From Bacteroidota bacterium (GTDB lineage Bacteria > Bacteroidota > Bacteroidia > Chitinophagales > LD1), in the NCBI GenBank assembly GCA_947475165.1, contig CANJLD010000005.1, positions 1 through 64,000 of the forward strand: DNA of 64,000 nucleotides, given 5' to 3'. Made by a program: the position numbers and the translations under genes. The notes under the pieces were generated by a model that was not told the DNA's origin, made no database searches, and saw only the letters and a program-made list of their open reading frames with translations. Below, piece after piece: positions 8,828 through 54,022 of the stretch (the stretch's first letter is position 1; the number at the start of each line of letters is the position of its first letter).

Positions 8828-9574
8828 ATGTGCTACCACTTTCAAGACCACGATACAGAAGACTATATTAAATCTTTCATGTCGCGTAACCCGCAATATA
8901 AATCGTATGTGTGGCAAGGCGCTAAGTATTATGTAAACGGTTTTGCTCATGGCAAAAACTATGTAGCCAAACAAGGTGCAGAGGCAATCGAGACATTAGA
9001 GTGGGGCTTAATACCTTTTTGGGTTAAAACAAAAGAAGATGCCAAACTTCGGCAAAACCAAACACTCAACGCCAAATCCGAAACCGTGTTTGAGTTACCC
9101 AGCTTCCGCCACTCCATCAAAAAACAAAAATGCCTCATCTTCGCTAAAGGCTTCTTTGAGTGGCGGCAAATAGATGCCAAAAACAAAATCCCCTACATCA
9201 TAGGCGTGCGGAATTCCGAAGATATGTTTACTCCCTTCACCTTTGGCGGCATCTTCGATAAATGGATAGATAAAGAAACAGGCGAAGTGCGCGAAACCTT
9301 TTCCATCATCACCACACGGGCTAACGAAATGATGAGCCAGATACACAATACCAAAATGCGTATGCCGCTCATCATCCCCGAGGCGAATCAAACAGAATGG
9401 CTAACCACCACCGATGAAAAACGCATTAAAGAACTAATGGTGCCATACCCTACTGATAGAATGATGGCTTACCCCGTTTCCAAACTGGTCTCTCAACAAA
9501 AATTAGAAAAAGACATTCCCGAAATAACACAAGGTGAAGAATACAACGAGGTAGTATTCGATGAGTTTTTATAA
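8828..9574 (+). CDS. SRAP (SOS response-associated peptidase) family protein, YedK/HMCES-like
   Basis: 248 residues, close to the family length. The catalytic Cys is residue 2 (MCYHF), exposed after Met removal; this fixes the start at 8828. Other active-site segments are present: LNAKSETVFE (Asn), GFFEW (Glu) and the His in IHNTKMRMPLI. In this family Cys2 forms a thiazolidine DNA-protein crosslink with abasic sites in single-stranded DNA, protecting them from breakage. The gene lies 38 bp after the nuclease gene on the same strand, though no functional tie is known. Confidence 0.93.
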   Translation: MCYHFQDHDTEDYIKSFMSRNPQYKSYVWQGAKYYVNGFAHGKNYVAKQGAEAIETLEWGLIPFWVKTKEDAKLRQNQTLNAKSETVFELPSFRHSIKKQKCLIFAKGFFEWRQIDAKNKIPYIIGVRNSEDMFTPFTFGGIFDKWIDKETGEVRETFSIITTRANEMMSQIHNTKMRMPLIIPEANQTEWLTTTDEKRIKELMVPYPTDRMMAYPVSKLVSQQKLEKDIPEITQGEEYNEVVFDEFL

Positions 9575-9695
9575 TCGGGTTTCGGCAGCAAAAAAGGATA
9601 ACTAACGCTATAACTTTAATATGTTAAGTCAAATCTATAAGTCAAAAAGAAAGCTAAAAAAATACTTATATTAATAAAATTGTAAAAGCGTTGGA

Positions 9696-20774: not shown

Positions 20775-21075
20775 TCTGAACATCTGTATTTACGCTTTAA
20801 ATACAGATAAAAAAGGCGTAAACACAGATGTTTAGAACGCAAACACAGATGTTTGGACCGTGAACACAGATGTTCAGAGCGTAAACACAGATGTTCAGAG
20901 CGTGAACACAGATAAAAACTTCGTGAACACAGATGTTTAGAACGTAAACACAGATAGAAATTGCGTGAACACAGATGTTTGGACCGTAAATACAGATAAA
21001 AACTTCGTGAACACGCGTTGTTAGCACTTAACTATCTGTAAAAACGGGGTGCATACAGATAGTTAGACTCAGATA
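20775..21075. repeat. 21-bp periodic intergenic repeat array, 11 units
   Basis: The ACAGAT core (degenerate in the last unit) recurs exactly every 21 bp at 20803, 20824, 20845, 20866, 20887, 20908, 20929, 20950, 20971, 20992 and 21013. The first three full units are perfect hairpins around the loop CAGA, with paired changes: TAAACA/TGTTTA, CAAACA/TGTTTG, TGAACA/TGTTCA. One inverted unit lies at the left end (20,775-20,794) and a TAACTATCTGTA/TACAGATAGTTA inverted pair at the right end (21,029-21,065). No spacers, so not CRISPR. The 76-aa ORF that reads through it on the minus strand is an artefact of the period being a multiple of three. Confidence 0.9.
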
Positions 21076-21194
21076 ATTCCCCAAAACACCTGAATTACAC
21101 CCATCCTGCTGTTCGCCATGTTCCGCAGGGCATATCGAACTTTAGTTAAAACAGGATTTTAAATCCTTCTTTACCCGTGCCTGAAACAAAGGCG

Positions 21195-37287: not shown

Positions 37288-38513
37288 TGAAAATAGAAGA
37301 ACAAAAACCAAAGAACAAAAATCAAAGAATAAAATCGCTTTGCATCTGGTTCTTGTTGCCTATTGCCTACTGCCTACTGCCTACCGCCTACTTATCAGCC
37401 CGCGACCTTTCCGATTCTTCCCGCATAACCTTACTCACTGTTGCTCCCGGTGATGAACTTTATTCTGCCTTTGGACACACCGGTATACGCATAACAGATT
37501 ACAGAAATAATTTTGATGTAGTGTTCAACTACGGCACTTTCGATTTTGAGCAACCGGGTTTCTATACCAATTTTGTAAGGGGCAAAATGCGCTACATGAT
37601 TTCGACAGACCGGTTCGATGATTTCATGGCAGAATATGTTTATGAAAAACGAAGTGTTACAGAACAGGAACTAAACTTAACTGCCGAAGACAAACAAAAA
37701 GTATTTGCATTTCTATACACTAACGCACTGCCCGAAAACAGAGAATACTACTACGATTTCTTTTGGGACAATTGCGCTACCCGTCCTCGCGATGTGTTTG
37801 AAAAAGTTTTGGGTAACCGGTTACAATATCACACCGAACATGCAGGCTTTCAGCAAAAAAAAACTATGCGCGATATGCTGCGGGTTTATACCGGCAACCG
37901 TGCCTGGGTTAATTATGGTTTCGATTTAATTCTCGGTTTGCCTTGCGAAGTTATAGCTGCTCCACGCGACCAAACTTTTCTTCCCGATTATCTTTCAAAA
38001 TATATTGACTGCGCTACGGTGGATGGCAAACCATTTGTTTTAAAAAAGACATTTCTCCTGCAATTCCCTTTGCCAAAAATTGAACATGGATTTAGTCCCA
38101 TTCATCTCAGTTTAATACTTGTGCTTATTGCCTTTGTCATTTGGCTTATTGAGCGAAAAAGAAAAATGCATTTCTACATTTTCGATTTCGTATTGTTTCT
38201 CATTGTCGGTTTGTTTGGCACTCTCTGGCTTTGTCTATGGCTTTTCACTGCACATTATTCGGTGCCGCAAAATTTGAATATGCTCTGGATGATTCCTTCC
38301 CACGCATTTGTGGCTTTCTTCTTGTTAAAAAAGCAGAAACCGGGTTGGCTTAAATATTATTTCACCGGTACCTATATTTTAATGCTCCTGCTTTTTATCT
38401 TTTGGCAATGGCTGCCTCAACATTATAATGTGGCGGTAATGCCTTTAGTATTTTTACTTTCCTTCCGCGCTGCGTTGATTGCTGTTCACTTGCACTTTAA
38501 AAACAAAGCATGA
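37287..38513 (+). CDS. DUF4105 membrane protein
   Basis: 408 residues. A signal-anchor segment near residues 17-40 is encoded by simple repeats (CCTACTGCCTACTGCC at about 37,365-37,395), giving LLPIAYCLLPTAYLSA. The DUF4105 domain follows: LLTVAPGDELYSAFGHTGIRI, FNYGTFDFEQPGFY and DFFWDNCATRPRD, where the conserved His and Cys resemble a papain/NlpC-like site. Residues ~265-408 contain five membrane helices. It overlaps the upstream AlgH gene by one base and the downstream esterase gene by 4 bp, so all three form a tight operon. Exact function unknown. Confidence 0.88.
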   Translation: MKIEEQKPKNKNQRIKSLCIWFLLPIAYCLLPTAYLSARDLSDSSRITLLTVAPGDELYSAFGHTGIRITDYRNNFDVVFNYGTFDFEQPGFYTNFVRGKMRYMISTDRFDDFMAEYVYEKRSVTEQELNLTAEDKQKVFAFLYTNALPENREYYYDFFWDNCATRPRDVFEKVLGNRLQYHTEHAGFQQKKTMRDMLRVYTGNRAWVNYGFDLILGLPCEVIAAPRDQTFLPDYLSKYIDCATVDGKPFVLKKTFLLQFPLPKIEHGFSPIHLSLILVLIAFVIWLIERKRKMHFYIFDFVLFLIVGLFGTLWLCLWLFTAHYSVPQNLNMLWMIPSHAFVAFFLLKKQKPGWLKYYFTGTYILMLLLFIFWQWLPQHYNVAVMPLVFLLSFRAALIAVHLHFKNKA

Positions 38514-42632: not shown

Positions 42633-44222
42633 CTATAAGAATATCTTGATAATATCTCCTACCTTAATTGGGCGGTTGAACAGGCTTTTGTTATCTGCCT
42701 TTAGTTTATCGATAGTAAGCCCTTGGTAGCGTTGGGTAATGTTCCAAAGGGTGTCTCCAGGTTGCACTACGTGGAAAATGCAGTTAGCCTTAATTTCGGC
42801 AGCAGTTTTGGCCGCAACATTATTGCTGTCGGTAAACGTATCTGCAGCAACTGTCACATTCGCCACGCTAATAGCTTTACTCTTTGTGGTATCAACTGCT
42901 GCAACAGCCGTTGGTTTTTCAATTATTTTACTGCTGAACGCCTGTGCGTAGGTAGAAGATACAGCAGGATTAGCCGAAGGTGCCGAAACCACTATCTTCA
43001 ACTTTTGTCCGTAATAAAGAGATGTGCTTTTCAGCTTATTCCATTTCTTAATACTGCTTACACTCACTCCGTATTTCGAAGCCACTTTGCTTATGCTTTC
43101 GTTCTTCTTTACTTTATAATAAATGGTTTTTGAGACAGAAGCCGCTACCGGTTCAAAGTTTTGCACTAACTGCGAAGGGTCATTCATTATTTCTTCTTTA
43201 CGTGCTTCAAACAAAGCGAAGAAGTTAATAGGCAGGTTCAATGCAAAGCCATTTAGTGTATATGGAATAACTCCTATCTTGATACTCGGGTTTAAAAACT
43301 GCAATTCATCTTCGCCAATACCCAGCACGGTCGAAATATGCTTTAAACTCACCTTCGAAGTTATCAGCACTGTATCAACTGCATACAGTTCGCGCTTAGG
43401 CTCGGCAGAAACCAATTTATAATCTTTGTATTGGTTCATTACATACACAGCCGCTATATAAGTGGGCACATAACTTCTGGTTTCGGCCGGAAGGTAATTC
43501 ATAATAGCCCAGAAGTTCTTTACTCCGCCTGCACGGGCAATAGCCTTATTTACATTCCCGGGGCCTGAGTTGTAAGCAGCCAGCACCAAATGCCAGTCGC
43601 CATAAATATCGTAGAGCTTCTTCAAATATTTAGCCGCTGCTTCGGTAGCTTTAACGGGGTCGCGTCTGTCATCTATATATGAGTTAATGTTCAGCCCCAT
43701 CATTTGGCCAGTGCCATACATAAACTGCCATAAACCGGTAGCCCCCGCGCGCGATACAGCTATAGGGTTAAAGGCAGATTCAACAATTGGCAGATATTTA
43801 AACTCCAGGGGAATGCCGTTGCGGTCAAGTATTTCTTCAAAAATGGGGAAGTAAATTTGCGAGTTGGCCAGCGAGCGCGCCATCAAGCCTCTTCTGCGGT
43901 AAGCAAACAAATCTATAAACATTTTTACCTGCTGGTTGTAAGTAAGCGGCACCAGGCTGGGTATTAGTTTCATCTTCTCTTTTATCTCAGCATCAGAATA
44001 TTTGGGAATAAAATCGTAAGGCATGTTAATGCTGGCGAGCAATTCATCGTCACCTACAAAAAATTTATCGCGGGTAAACAGGTTAAACGACATGCTATCT
44101 AACTGACAAATAATAGGGTCAATGCAAACCGAATCGGAAAGCATATAATGGGCAGAAACAGGTTTTGTGAATGCCGTTGCAAACAGAAAAACTGCGATAG
44201 TCTTGAAGAGTTTTGCTTTCAT
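42633..44222 (-). CDS. MltD-like lytic transglycosylase with two LysM domains
   Basis: 529 residues from the ATG at 44222 (signal peptide MKAKLFKTIAVFLFATAFTK ... SAHY); an ATG at 44252 would add 10 residues. SLT domain about 115-290: the catalytic Glu is in LPIVESAFNPIAVSRAGATG, followed by LWQFMYGTG and LAAYNSGPGNVNKAI. Two LysM domains lie at about 365-410 (YYKVKKNESISKVASKYGV) and 480-529 (HVVQPGDTLWNITQRYQG), which bind peptidoglycan. A Pro/Ala/Thr linker separates them. Role: cleavage of peptidoglycan glycan strands in cell-wall turnover or secretion. Confidence 0.95.
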   Translation of the reverse strand: MKAKLFKTIAVFLFATAFTKPVSAHYMLSDSVCIDPIICQLDSMSFNLFTRDKFFVGDDELLASINMPYDFIPKYSDAEIKEKMKLIPSLVPLTYNQQVKMFIDLFAYRRRGLMARSLANSQIYFPIFEEILDRNGIPLEFKYLPIVESAFNPIAVSRAGATGLWQFMYGTGQMMGLNINSYIDDRRDPVKATEAAAKYLKKLYDIYGDWHLVLAAYNSGPGNVNKAIARAGGVKNFWAIMNYLPAETRSYVPTYIAAVYVMNQYKDYKLVSAEPKRELYAVDTVLITSKVSLKHISTVLGIGEDELQFLNPSIKIGVIPYTLNGFALNLPINFFALFEARKEEIMNDPSQLVQNFEPVAASVSKTIYYKVKKNESISKVASKYGVSVSSIKKWNKLKSTSLYYGQKLKIVVSAPSANPAVSSTYAQAFSSKIIEKPTAVAAVDTTKSKAISVANVTVAADTFTDSNNVAAKTAAEIKANCIFHVVQPGDTLWNITQRYQGLTIDKLKADNKSLFNRPIKVGDIIKIFL

Positions 44223-44590
44223 GGCTAAGGGTTTAGTGTAAAGGTAACGCATTCGGTAGTCTTAATATTTTATGAGCTTGTTTGTTTGTAAATTTTAACC
44301 GTGCCAAAGTAAATATTTAGCGCAGTTGCAAGGCCTTGTTTTCAACGTTGGTTTTCATTGGCTGTAAAGTTATGTGGGCATCAGAAAAAAATTGAGTGTA
44401 AAAACATTCTACCAAATATACTGCACAGAAGTCTTATTCTTCACTATTCAAATTACACTTTACCGTTGTACACACTGCCGGTGAAGAAAATCTGCCTGGA
44501 TTGGGCTGCATTTTGTAAGGGTTTACTTAAAAGCGGAGTAATTTTTGCTGTTTTCTGCTTTTTAAAACTTTAAATGGCATTACATTTTTA
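44223..44590. other. Non-coding region between the MltD-like gene and the 42-bp array
   Basis: About 370 bp of low-complexity, AT-rich leader. No ORF is convincing (the 44,358-44,573 one has no features). No clear promoter for the MltD-like gene was identified. Confidence 0.4.
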
Positions 44591-44895
44591 ATTTTTACAT
44601 GCCCTTTATATATAAAGGGCACTATATTTTTAGTTTTCTGCCTCCCTTTATGTTTAAAGGGCACAGTATTTTTAGTTTTTTACCTCCCTTTATATATAAA
44701 GGGCACTATATTTTTAGTTTTCTGCCTCCCTTTATGTTTAAAGGGCACAGTATTTTTAGTTTTTTACCTCCCTTTATATTTAAAGGGCACTATATTTTTA
44801 GTTTTCTGCCTCACTTTATGTTTAAAGGGCAGGGTATTTTTAGTTTTCCTCCTCCTTCTATATATAGAAGAAGCTATATTTTTAGTTTTTACATA
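44591..44895. repeat. 42-bp intergenic palindromic repeat array, 7 units
   Basis: CCCTTT-type cores start at 44602, 44644, 44686, 44728, 44770, 44812 and 44854 (42 bp each). Every unit carries an inverted repeat: CCCTTTATATATAAAGGG in units 1 and 3 and variants with TATGTTTAAAG or TATATTTAAAG elsewhere. The last unit has CTTCTATATATAGAAG, where both arms have changed together. Between cores is CTATATTTTTAGTTTT-like spacer. Units alternate (1, 3, 5 vs 2, 4, 6), giving an 84-bp super-period. An ORF reading through (105 aa, 14-residue repeat) exists because 42 is a multiple of 3, but there is no support for it as a gene. Confidence 0.93.
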
Positions 44896-45057
44896 CCATG
44901 TATTTACCTAAAATAATTTAGTGTATGCTGCTGCAAAAGTCAGCAACCCTGCGGTGGCGGAATAATTAGCCGGATACCTTAACATAGGTTATGGTAGTAT
45001 GATTGGTGTTTTGCCATTTAGGTCTGGCAAAAGCGTTATTTTAACTGAGTAAAAACA

Positions 45058-45088
45058 AAAAAGCCCCTCCTAAACAGAGGGGCTTTTT
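45058..45088 (-). terminator. Rho-independent terminator of the SusCD operon
   Basis: 12-bp perfect stem AAAAAGCCCCTC / GAGGGGCTTTTT, 7-base loop, T-run, 19 bp past the SusD stop. Confidence 0.92.
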
Positions 45089-45106: not shown

Positions 45107-46612
45107 CTAATTCATATCCCACCAAAGGCGGGTATCCTGCTCATCGGCACCCTGCAAACCTACTGCTTCAGTATAGTGCGCACCGTTTAAGGTTTGCTCA
45201 TCGTTAGGGTATTTTAAACGTAACGGAATACCGGTGCCGTCCATTACCCCATCGGCAGGTAATTGAAGAATACCAAAATCCAATCTTCTCCATTCTGCCC
45301 ATGCCTCTAAGCCCTGATTGTAAAGAGCCAACCATTTTTGTTTGCCTATTATTTGCTTCCAACTAGAACCACCGGTAATAAGAGTAGCATAGTCAACACT
45401 TGGTTGAGCTAAATAAGTAGTAACATCACCTCCGCTTACCCCCCATGAACCCATAGAAGCAATAACGCCATCGTTGTAATAGTTAGCTGCCGTTCCGGTA
45501 ATAAAGCCGCGTTCTACAGCCTCTGCCAGAATAAACTGCACTTCGGCATAGCTCATAAAAACAGCCGGTGCAGTAGCACCAACCACTGCTTCGCCTCTTT
45601 GCGATACATCATCATTGGCAGTAGCCGCACCGTTGGCTTCCGACAAACCGTAAACTTCACCCACATAACTGTTTGAAGTTACCGCCTTGTCAAAGTAAAT
45701 ACCTATGCGCGGGTCGCTCATTGTGTTCATCAAATCAATCATCGTATTCGAAGCGCAAAAATCTAAACGGTTGTTTACATTAATGTCATAAAAATGCAGA
45801 TTGGTATTTGGCACATTGCTCAGGTAATTCAATTGAGCATTTTCGGAATTAGATGTAAAAACACCAGCGGTTACAGCTTCATTTATTTTTTGTGCAGCAA
45901 GCACCGGTTCGCGGTCGGCTAAGCGAATAGCCAAACGGCATTTAAGCGAGTTGCCGAATTTAGCCCACAGCGACATATCGCCCTGGTAAATAATATCCCC
46001 GGTTGGTCCTGCACCGCCATTAATCAGGCTAAGCGCATTATCCAGCTCGGCTAATAAGCCTAAATAAATATCGCGCTGACTATCATATTTAGGTTGTGGG
46101 TTTGCCGCACCTTTTAATGCTTCGCTGTATGGTGCCATTCCCCAGGTATCGGTAATGCGCTGCATTTGCCAAACACGTATAATAGTAGCCACCGCAATCT
46201 GGTTACCGGCATCGCCTTCGGTTGAAACACCGGCAGGGTCAGCTTTGCATTTGTCAATAATATATTGCAACTCAAACAAACCGCCTACCTGTACCAAAGC
46301 ATCATTGTTATTAGCACCGGAATAAAAGCTTGACCAATAGTCACCGGTTACCGTTGGGCGGAATAAATAGCGGCTTTCGGAAGAGTATTGGTTAGACGCC
46401 CAATACTGAGCTAACTGGTTGCCAACCTGTCCGCCCCACCAGTGGTCGAAGTTGTTATCTGCCAACCCTTTCAGTGCACCGGTAAGCAAATAGCTATTCG
46501 GTACGTTCTTAGGATTGTTAGGGTCATCATTAATTTTTTCGAAGTTTTTAGTGCACCCCGCGAACAGTAGTATAGCCAGTGCAACAGTTGATATTTTTAA
46601 TGAGTTACGCAT
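45107..46612 (-). CDS. SusD/RagB-family surface lipoprotein
   Basis: 501 residues. Lipoprotein signal with lipobox FAGCTKNFEKINDDPNNPKN; the KINDDPNNP run just after the Cys is a hallmark of the SusD-like 2 subgroup. TPR-like helices follow, with ALSLINGG, GNSLKCRLAIRLA, FMSYAEVQFILAEA and a C-terminal NQGLEAWAEWRRLDFG motif. SusD-type proteins cover a SusC channel and capture the nutrient, often a glycan or peptide. Its start lies 21 bp after the SusC stop. No glycoside hydrolase or regulator is next door, so the substrate is open. Confidence 0.93.
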   Translation of the reverse strand: MRNSLKISTVALAILLFAGCTKNFEKINDDPNNPKNVPNSYLLTGALKGLADNNFDHWWGGQVGNQLAQYWASNQYSSESRYLFRPTVTGDYWSSFYSGANNNDALVQVGGLFELQYIIDKCKADPAGVSTEGDAGNQIAVATIIRVWQMQRITDTWGMAPYSEALKGAANPQPKYDSQRDIYLGLLAELDNALSLINGGAGPTGDIIYQGDMSLWAKFGNSLKCRLAIRLADREPVLAAQKINEAVTAGVFTSNSENAQLNYLSNVPNTNLHFYDINVNNRLDFCASNTMIDLMNTMSDPRIGIYFDKAVTSNSYVGEVYGLSEANGAATANDDVSQRGEAVVGATAPAVFMSYAEVQFILAEAVERGFITGTAANYYNDGVIASMGSWGVSGGDVTTYLAQPSVDYATLITGGSSWKQIIGKQKWLALYNQGLEAWAEWRRLDFGILQLPADGVMDGTGIPLRLKYPNDEQTLNGAHYTEAVGLQGADEQDTRLWWDMN

Positions 46613-53768: not shown

Positions 53769-54022
53769 GTAAATTTTTGAACCTCCGAACTAAACCGGTT
53801 TACCCTAAATGTTAACTAATTTAGCTCTTAACTAAACTAATTAACCACCAATCTAAACTGGTTTAGCTCCGAACTAAACTTTTGAACCTCTGAACTAAAC
53901 CGGTTTACCTGCCGGGTAAACTAATTACCCCTCCAAGGTGCGTTAGTTAACAAATGAAGTAAACTGATTTAGCTCCGAACTAAACCAGTTTACCTATGAG
54001 CTAAACTTTTGAACCAAATTGG
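53769..54022. repeat. 21-bp periodic intergenic repeat array, about 12 units
   Basis: CTAAAC/GTAAA-type cores at 53769, 53790, 53832, 53853, 53874, 53895, 53916, 53959, 53980 and 54001; intervals are 21, 42, 21, 21, 21, 21, 43, 21 and 21 bp. The units are rich in short palindromes, for example TAAACCGGTTTA (two copies), TAAACCAGTTTA, CTAAACTGGTTTAG and GGTAAACTAATTACC. The sequence differs from the arrays at 20.8 and 44.6 kb. No spacers. Confidence 0.88.

Follow-up and report, generated by a model that had tools for sequence, protein, structure and literature searches.

The intergenic stretch between a SusD-like lipoprotein gene and an SLT transglycosylase gene in the 64-kb piece of Bacteroidota DNA analyzed here (the window) carries a tandem array of palindromic 42-bp units, and we questioned what kind of element this array is. 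The first-pass annotation had described seven units with exact 42-bp spacing, which was borne out: the units are contiguous (Table 1), with a tandem score of 470. Identity between positions 21 bp apart is only 0.26, so this array has no 21-bp sub-repeat, while identity is higher at a lag of 84 bp (0.90) than at 42 bp (0.81) because the array starts with units in the order A-B-A-B. Units 1 and 3 are identical, as are units 2 and 4, and unit 5 is A-like (41/42). The A/B alternation proposed at first thus holds for these units, but unit 6 is only closest to B (36/42, versus 34/42 for A) and unit 7 is divergent, at 29/42 relative to A and 26/42 relative to B.

An inverted repeat of the CCCTTT...AAAGGG type had been ascribed to every unit, with a change in the last one that leaves the palindrome intact. 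The repeat is exact in units 1-5, but one pair is broken in unit 6 (CACTTT...AAAGGG), and the arms of unit 7 read CTTCTA...TAGAAG. Here a C-G pair has become T-A and a T-A pair has become C-G, each on both sides, and the dyad is indeed kept; besides these two double-sided changes, however, unit 7 has lost one outer pair and acquired two others. The palindrome exceeds what column permutation gives (p=0.006 and 0.007 in two runs), and the longest invariant block of the array is the linker TATTTTTAGTTTT rather than the palindrome. When right arms were permuted between units of this array alone, arm coupling gave z=2.46 and p=0.14; the arm change in unit 7 is a single event and is therefore not evidence by itself.

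Table 1. Coordinates of the array, its parts and neighboring features in the window.
Feature	Position	Strand	Remarks
42-bp repeat array	44602-44895	.	seven contiguous units; lag-42 identity 0.81, lag-84 identity 0.90
Degenerate part-unit, left edge of array	about 44569-44601	.	repeat call begins at 44569; homology to the C7 array spans the part-unit
18-bp palindrome CCCTTTATATATAAAGGG, unit 1	44602-44619	.	identical in unit 3; near-same in units 2, 4, 5 and 6
Linker TATTTTTAGTTTT, unit 1	44625-44637	.	invariant in 7/7 units
Unit 7, CTTCTATATATAGAAG	44854-44895	.	two pairs altered on both arms
SusD-like lipoprotein gene	45107-46612	-	PF12771, E 7.6e-117
Terminator-like hairpin with T run, 13-pair stem	45058-45088	-	3' of the SusD-like gene, between gene and array
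SLT transglycosylase with LysM domains (MltD-like)	42633-44252	-	PF01464, PF01476
Transglycosylase gene start and upstream region	44200-44397	-	conserved in two close relatives; array lies beyond
Mechanical ORF of 14-aa repeats through array	44599-44916	+	judged non-coding
Second window array of the class, 21/42/63/84 bp	20816-21066	.	
Third window array of the class, 21/42 bp	53781-54010	.	phase slips 1 bp near right end

A genome-wide class of intergenic arrays

The array had been noted to have twice the period of the two other arrays in the window, which is numerically right, since those consist of 21-bp units with higher-order periods. This relation proved to be genome-wide in period counts: the 42-bp array is one of a class of intergenic arrays that have periods of a multiple of 21 bp and an excess of palindromes, lie outside long ORFs and occur in all gene orientations. 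We sampled 864 kb (22%, window included) of the window's genome (G000, 3.88 Mb) and 220 kb of another member of the genus (G010), the named relatives used for comparison being metagenome-assembled Bacteroidota. Among non-coding tandem repeats, meaning those not mostly inside a mechanical ORF of at least 200 aa, 32 of 38 in G000 repeat at exactly 21, 42, 63, 84 or 105 bp, all multiples of 21, with the other six at 8, 20, 27, 34, 41 and 43 bp. In G010, 11 of 12 had a period of this kind, and the remaining one was 123 bp (3x41). By comparison, only 2 of the 27 repeats inside G000 ORFs of at least 200 aa were multiples of 21, and 11 were 7-bp repeats. A lag spectrum of the first 464 kb of G000, independent of the repeat finder, gave the same period result. 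The inexact periods of 20, 41, 43, 123 (3x41) and 85 bp (the last in G025) are 1-3 bp off a multiple of 21 and near whole helical turns; 20, 41, 43 and 85 are not whole codons, while 123 is. The non-coding label is not absolute in every case, as the G000 array at C7:28179 sits in a 168-aa frame and could be a small gene.

Heptanucleotide tracts were also seen, in the window at 37297-37334 and 37357-37392 and elsewhere in G000 on contigs C1, C2, C3 and C7. Of the period-7 or period-14 tracts inside G000 ORFs, 8/13 start no more than 25 bp from the beginning of the mechanical ORF, like phase-variable starts. An origin of the arrays from heptanucleotide repeats was rejected, as the arrays show no 7-bp conservation (p=0.53 and 0.63).

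The 49 merged arrays analyzed as a class had been selected for periods that differ by no more than 1 from a multiple of 21; for the period statistic we therefore rely solely on the repeat count and the lag spectrum, both obtained before this selection. Of the 49, the 39 longer ones entered the palindrome test, 36 the periodic-conservation test and 38 the gap count; an earlier palindrome set of 25 arrays and the arm-mismatch set were listed by hand. Array number is uneven within the genus, with 31 arrays in the 864 kb of G000 and 11 in the 220 kb of G010, versus only 5 in about 838 kb sampled from 13 other members. Four genomes of other genera gave two weak arrays in 400 kb. If the sample is typical, G000 holds about 140 arrays in total.

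Sequence matches among the 49 arrays were limited to three array-level pairs at unlinked places, the rest being mostly unrelated. This agreement in period between unrelated sequences suggests that what is kept is a DNA shape, or a protein bound along one face, and not a sequence. The 38 arrays in the gap count comprised 8392 columns with 1363 mismatches to consensus and 74 raw gap events, and in all but five arrays the net gap length is zero or a multiple of 21, an outcome that both array calling and the aligner favor. In the G000 array at C3:39465-39855, different stretches have periods of 84, 105 and 189 bp, in steps of 21 bp.

Dyads, helical periodicity and the level at which the arrays act

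Palindromes exceeded unit-column permutation in 18 of the 39 arrays tested (p<0.05; Fisher 1.4e-17) and were not significant in the other 21; in the earlier hand-listed set, 13/25 were palindromic. The first-pass annotation had asked whether changes in the two arms co-occur. Paired arm changes were found in other arrays too, such as C3:11527 and C5:85293, and permuting right arms between units gave a Stouffer Z of 2.4 over the 28 arrays with arm variation, 17 of them positive (Z 1.9, with 9 positive, for the 13 that are palindromic at p<0.05). One array was clearly negative (z -2.18), and the window's array taken alone falls short of significance, as given above. There is thus a modest coupling of the arms across the class, but with a Z of just 2.4 and one clearly negative array this covariation is suggestive only.

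Conservation was also examined for periodicity along the unit. For the 25 arrays built of 21-bp units, 0 of 2000 permutations reached the observed power at 10.5 bp (p=0.0005, ten harmonics examined), and the 5.25-bp harmonic gave p=0.01. Conservation at 3 bp was absent from these arrays (p=0.87) and from the 11 without 21-bp sub-units (p=0.67). The 10.5-bp signal was likewise absent from those 11 arrays, which include the 42-bp array of the window (p=0.72).

We weighed these results against readings in which the product of the array matters. The arrays could encode protein, here a 105-aa product of 14-residue repeats, and the mechanical frame through the window's array is open throughout. Only 8 of 42 arrays lack any open frame, compared with 14.9 expected from column shuffling, and 3.24 of 6 frames are open on average versus 2.95 in GC-matched intergenic 42-mers (p=0.014). 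However, 2.8 of 6 frames are open to begin with when random intergenic 42-mers are placed in tandem, eight arrays do without an open frame altogether, there is no 3-bp conservation, and arrays with 41- and 43-bp units break the frame. We rejected the coding explanation, which is scarcely credible given that an open frame is expected by chance and the 3-bp signal is absent.

Alternatively, the units could be transcribed as tandem hairpins that serve as a terminator, an RNA stability element or a small RNA. The window's array folds well as RNA on the two strands (z -7.1 and -7.9) and contains three terminator-like sites on the + strand, and the arm mismatches of some arrays are one-sided (G-T/A-C 0/4, 3/0 and 2/9), as wobble pairing would give. 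Yet this array lies past a terminator, and tRNA is the only Rfam family that reaches the gathering threshold in the 64-kb window, with no structured-RNA family at the array. Terminator-like hairpins precede arrays on 11/39 sides that face a gene end, compared with 60/400 random gene ends and 18/400 positions inside genes. Genes flanking 42 arrays were convergent in 10 cases, divergent in 10, co-directional in 21 and of unknown orientation in 1; gaps of at least 250 bp in general (n=171) were convergent in 33, divergent in 36 and co-directional in 102. Since arrays occur in every orientation, including the 10/42 between divergent genes, being transcribed through is not a property that they share. 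Of the four arrays whose arms have at least nine G-T or A-C mismatches, three are balanced (6/6, 12/11 and 5/4) and one is skewed (2/9), while some small arrays are one-sided (0/4 and 3/0) and the 44602-44895 array has none, so the mismatches do no more than lean against RNA. The gene orientations and the hairpin counts at array sides led us to reject the idea that all arrays serve as terminators, and a role of the hairpins as RNA is on the whole improbable.

Hairpins might also form in the DNA itself, with palindromes that extrude as cruciforms and absorb torsion between transcription units, phase-locked on one face. The strong hairpin potential of the array as single-stranded DNA (z -7.5) and its placement between a terminator and the next gene would fit such a supercoil sink. 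Arms are short (about 6-9 bp), however, 21 of 39 arrays have no significant palindrome, and extrusion needs no 21-bp spacing; this, too, we regard as unlikely.

Taken together, conservation at 10.5 bp rather than 3 bp, along with the orientation, mismatch and open-frame data, argues against RNA or protein, and we infer that the arrays act as double-stranded DNA. Tentatively, and at somewhat less than an even chance, we favor operator-like arrays on which putative dimeric DNA-binding proteins line up on one helix face. Each dyad would hold one dimer, and with units spaced by two or four turns the dimers would all lie on the same face and be able to touch. Touching dimers might then form a patch or filament that acts between transcription units as a spacer, insulator or architectural site; for the 42-bp array this would be between the terminator of the SusD-like gene and the transglycosylase upstream region. 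The period rule, the palindromes, the 10.5-bp conservation and the occurrence in all orientations favor this DNA-level reading, as does an array of G010 at the same gene (see below). Against the operator version of it count the 11 arrays with no 10.5-bp signal, the 21/39 arrays that are not significantly palindromic and the variety of sequences, since one sequence-specific dimer is not expected to suit so many.

Relatives, duplication and known repeat systems

The sequence of the window's array occurs once more in the same genome, as a related array at G000:C7:162256-162491 (inverted, 81% identical). A search of 29 relatives (E<=0.01) returned only one 30-bp match, in G011. The region upstream of the transglycosylase gene is itself 78% identical over 183-198 bp in two relatives' contigs (L010/L122, which are one contig, and L129). 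At the orthologous gene of G010 we found a 21-bp array upstream (L127 9481-9651; also L015 984-1154), which in L127 is visible by eye from about 9355 (9355-9660) and has palindromes such as ACTTACCGTTAAGT. This array is some 350 bp from the transglycosylase start and the window's array begins at 317 bp, on the same side of the gene, but their sequences are unrelated and the neighbor on the far side differs, with no SusC or SusD match in L127. Among 29 other transglycosylase loci searched with TRF, a 21-bp-type array was present only in G010 (L010, L013 and L024 end early), and G010 was also the only one with an array among the 12 genus members whose available upstream sequence extends to 660 bp or more, which counts against the operator reading. 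At the array density of G010, the chance of an array within 1.5 kb upstream is about 8% by our estimate, for one case that was noticed post hoc. Flanking proteins of three other arrays were mostly not common to the genus: those of the first occur in its own genome and 2/17 others, those of the second in its own genome only, and those of the third had no more than weak matches at family level beyond G000.

Since the genus members differ so much in array number and positions are mostly not common, a neutral explanation is nearly as likely as the operator reading and may account for the class at about one chance in three: minisatellites that arise by lineage-specific duplication in two-turn steps, with no selected function. 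Such duplication could be due to a dimeric nuclease or a recombinase, for example, or to slippage on wrapped DNA, and hairpin template switching in replication could produce both the palindromes and the paired arm changes. In line with this, arrays abound in G000 and G010 and are few in the 13 other members, which is also hard to square with an essential role; the sequence of the window's array was not found in the 29 relatives except for the 30-bp match; and it contains an exact 84-bp duplication (units 1-2 and 3-4). SbcD together with SbcC cuts DNA hairpins, and SbcD was above cut-off in only 1/18 genus genomes (8/14 control genomes), so hairpins may survive in this genus; a sub-threshold match was present in 7 more genus genomes, including G000. 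The picture is no different in array-poor genomes, so low SbcD does not explain the difference between rich and poor genomes, and its loss was rejected as the cause of array richness. Conservation at 10.5 bp among diverged units would be unexpected without selection, however, and no slippage mechanism that advances by 21 bp is known to us. The gaps that sum to zero or multiples of 21 in all but five of 38 arrays also count against the neutral reading, with the bias from array calling and the aligner given above.

Copying has some part in the arrays, and this counts against the operator reading as well. One of the three related pairs has about 128 bp of flank in common, while the genes beyond differ (a DNA methylase and an amidohydrolase), so some copying occurs and the arrays are not fully independent. 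These pairs at unlinked places, and the flank in common beyond one of them, would fit a mobile palindromic element of the REP or MITE kind. Three matches among 49 arrays are few, however, and the arrays with their 300-bp flanks have no end sequence in common in general, apart from the ~128-bp tail of the one pair. Nor do matches to Y1 transposase track array density, with 1 in G000 and 5 in G010, both array-rich, and 10, 4 and 3 in G011, G009 and G016, which had no array in the sampled parts. RAYT-driven REP was accordingly rejected as the cause of array richness, and we consider a mobile element very unlikely.

Returning to dimers on helix-phased dyads, we compared the class with known systems. 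Plasmid centromere arrays (ParR/parC, omega) and iterons are direct repeats in helical register that are coated by small DNA-binding proteins, and they occupy one locus per replicon, beside the gene for the binding protein. The 44602-44895 array, with its palindromes and 42-bp period, resembles them and operators in having dyad sites in helical register. Unlike these systems, the arrays would occupy about 140 loci by extrapolation, and no binding-protein gene of that type was found among ten flanking proteins scanned, while a LuxR-type response regulator adjoins one array.

ARG boxes have a centre spacing of roughly 21 bp. In ArgR-type tandem operators, palindromes are adjacent and domain pairs contact successive major grooves on one face (PMC7248756). 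The likeness would lie in adjacent palindromes on one helix face; by contrast, those operators usually consist of tandem boxes that follow a single consensus within a regulon, whereas the present arrays have up to 17 units and a consensus that varies by array, and no regulon was seen for them. REP and BIME elements are described in PMC3733652 as short palindromic repeats that are sometimes reiterated in tandem. REP families have a common sequence and a GTAG or CGTC tag, whereas our arrays are mostly unrelated and have no one palindrome in common across the genome beyond the three related pairs among 49. The Bacteroidota minisatellites of Porphyromonas gingivalis, namely the BrickBuilt (23-nt) and 464/PgRS (41-nt) tandem repeats, are alike in belonging to this phylum and, for one of them, in having 41-nt units; they form families with similar terminal inverted repeats, though (PMC4596501), and no such common ends were found here. 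The arrays also differ from CRISPR, which has unique spacers, as the sequence between palindromes is itself repeated and the linker is invariant. None of the known families fits the class. A search of open-licence PubMed Central text returned no description of 21-bp-quantised arrays, which does not in itself show their absence from print.

Sequence is the usual basis for classifying tandem repeats in bacterial spacers, while agreement here is in period and mostly not in sequence. We would therefore suggest, with considerable reserve, that the class is defined by geometry rather than sequence, as dyad-prone units every two turns that a putative reader or writer measures by turn and symmetry. 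An extrapolated total of about 140 arrays of common period points to a constraint, or to copying machinery, that operates by helical turns, and either answer would be new.

Two further features were seen at individual arrays. In the G000 array at C2:65561-65874, the left half carries the motif TTGAATGA and the right half its inverted complement, TCATTCAA. A dispersed element of ~57 bp with a CCTTCTCC...GGAGAAGG hairpin lies beside two arrays (G000 C5 about 106785-106842 and C1 about 194861-194918), with a weaker match in the window at 21106-21167.
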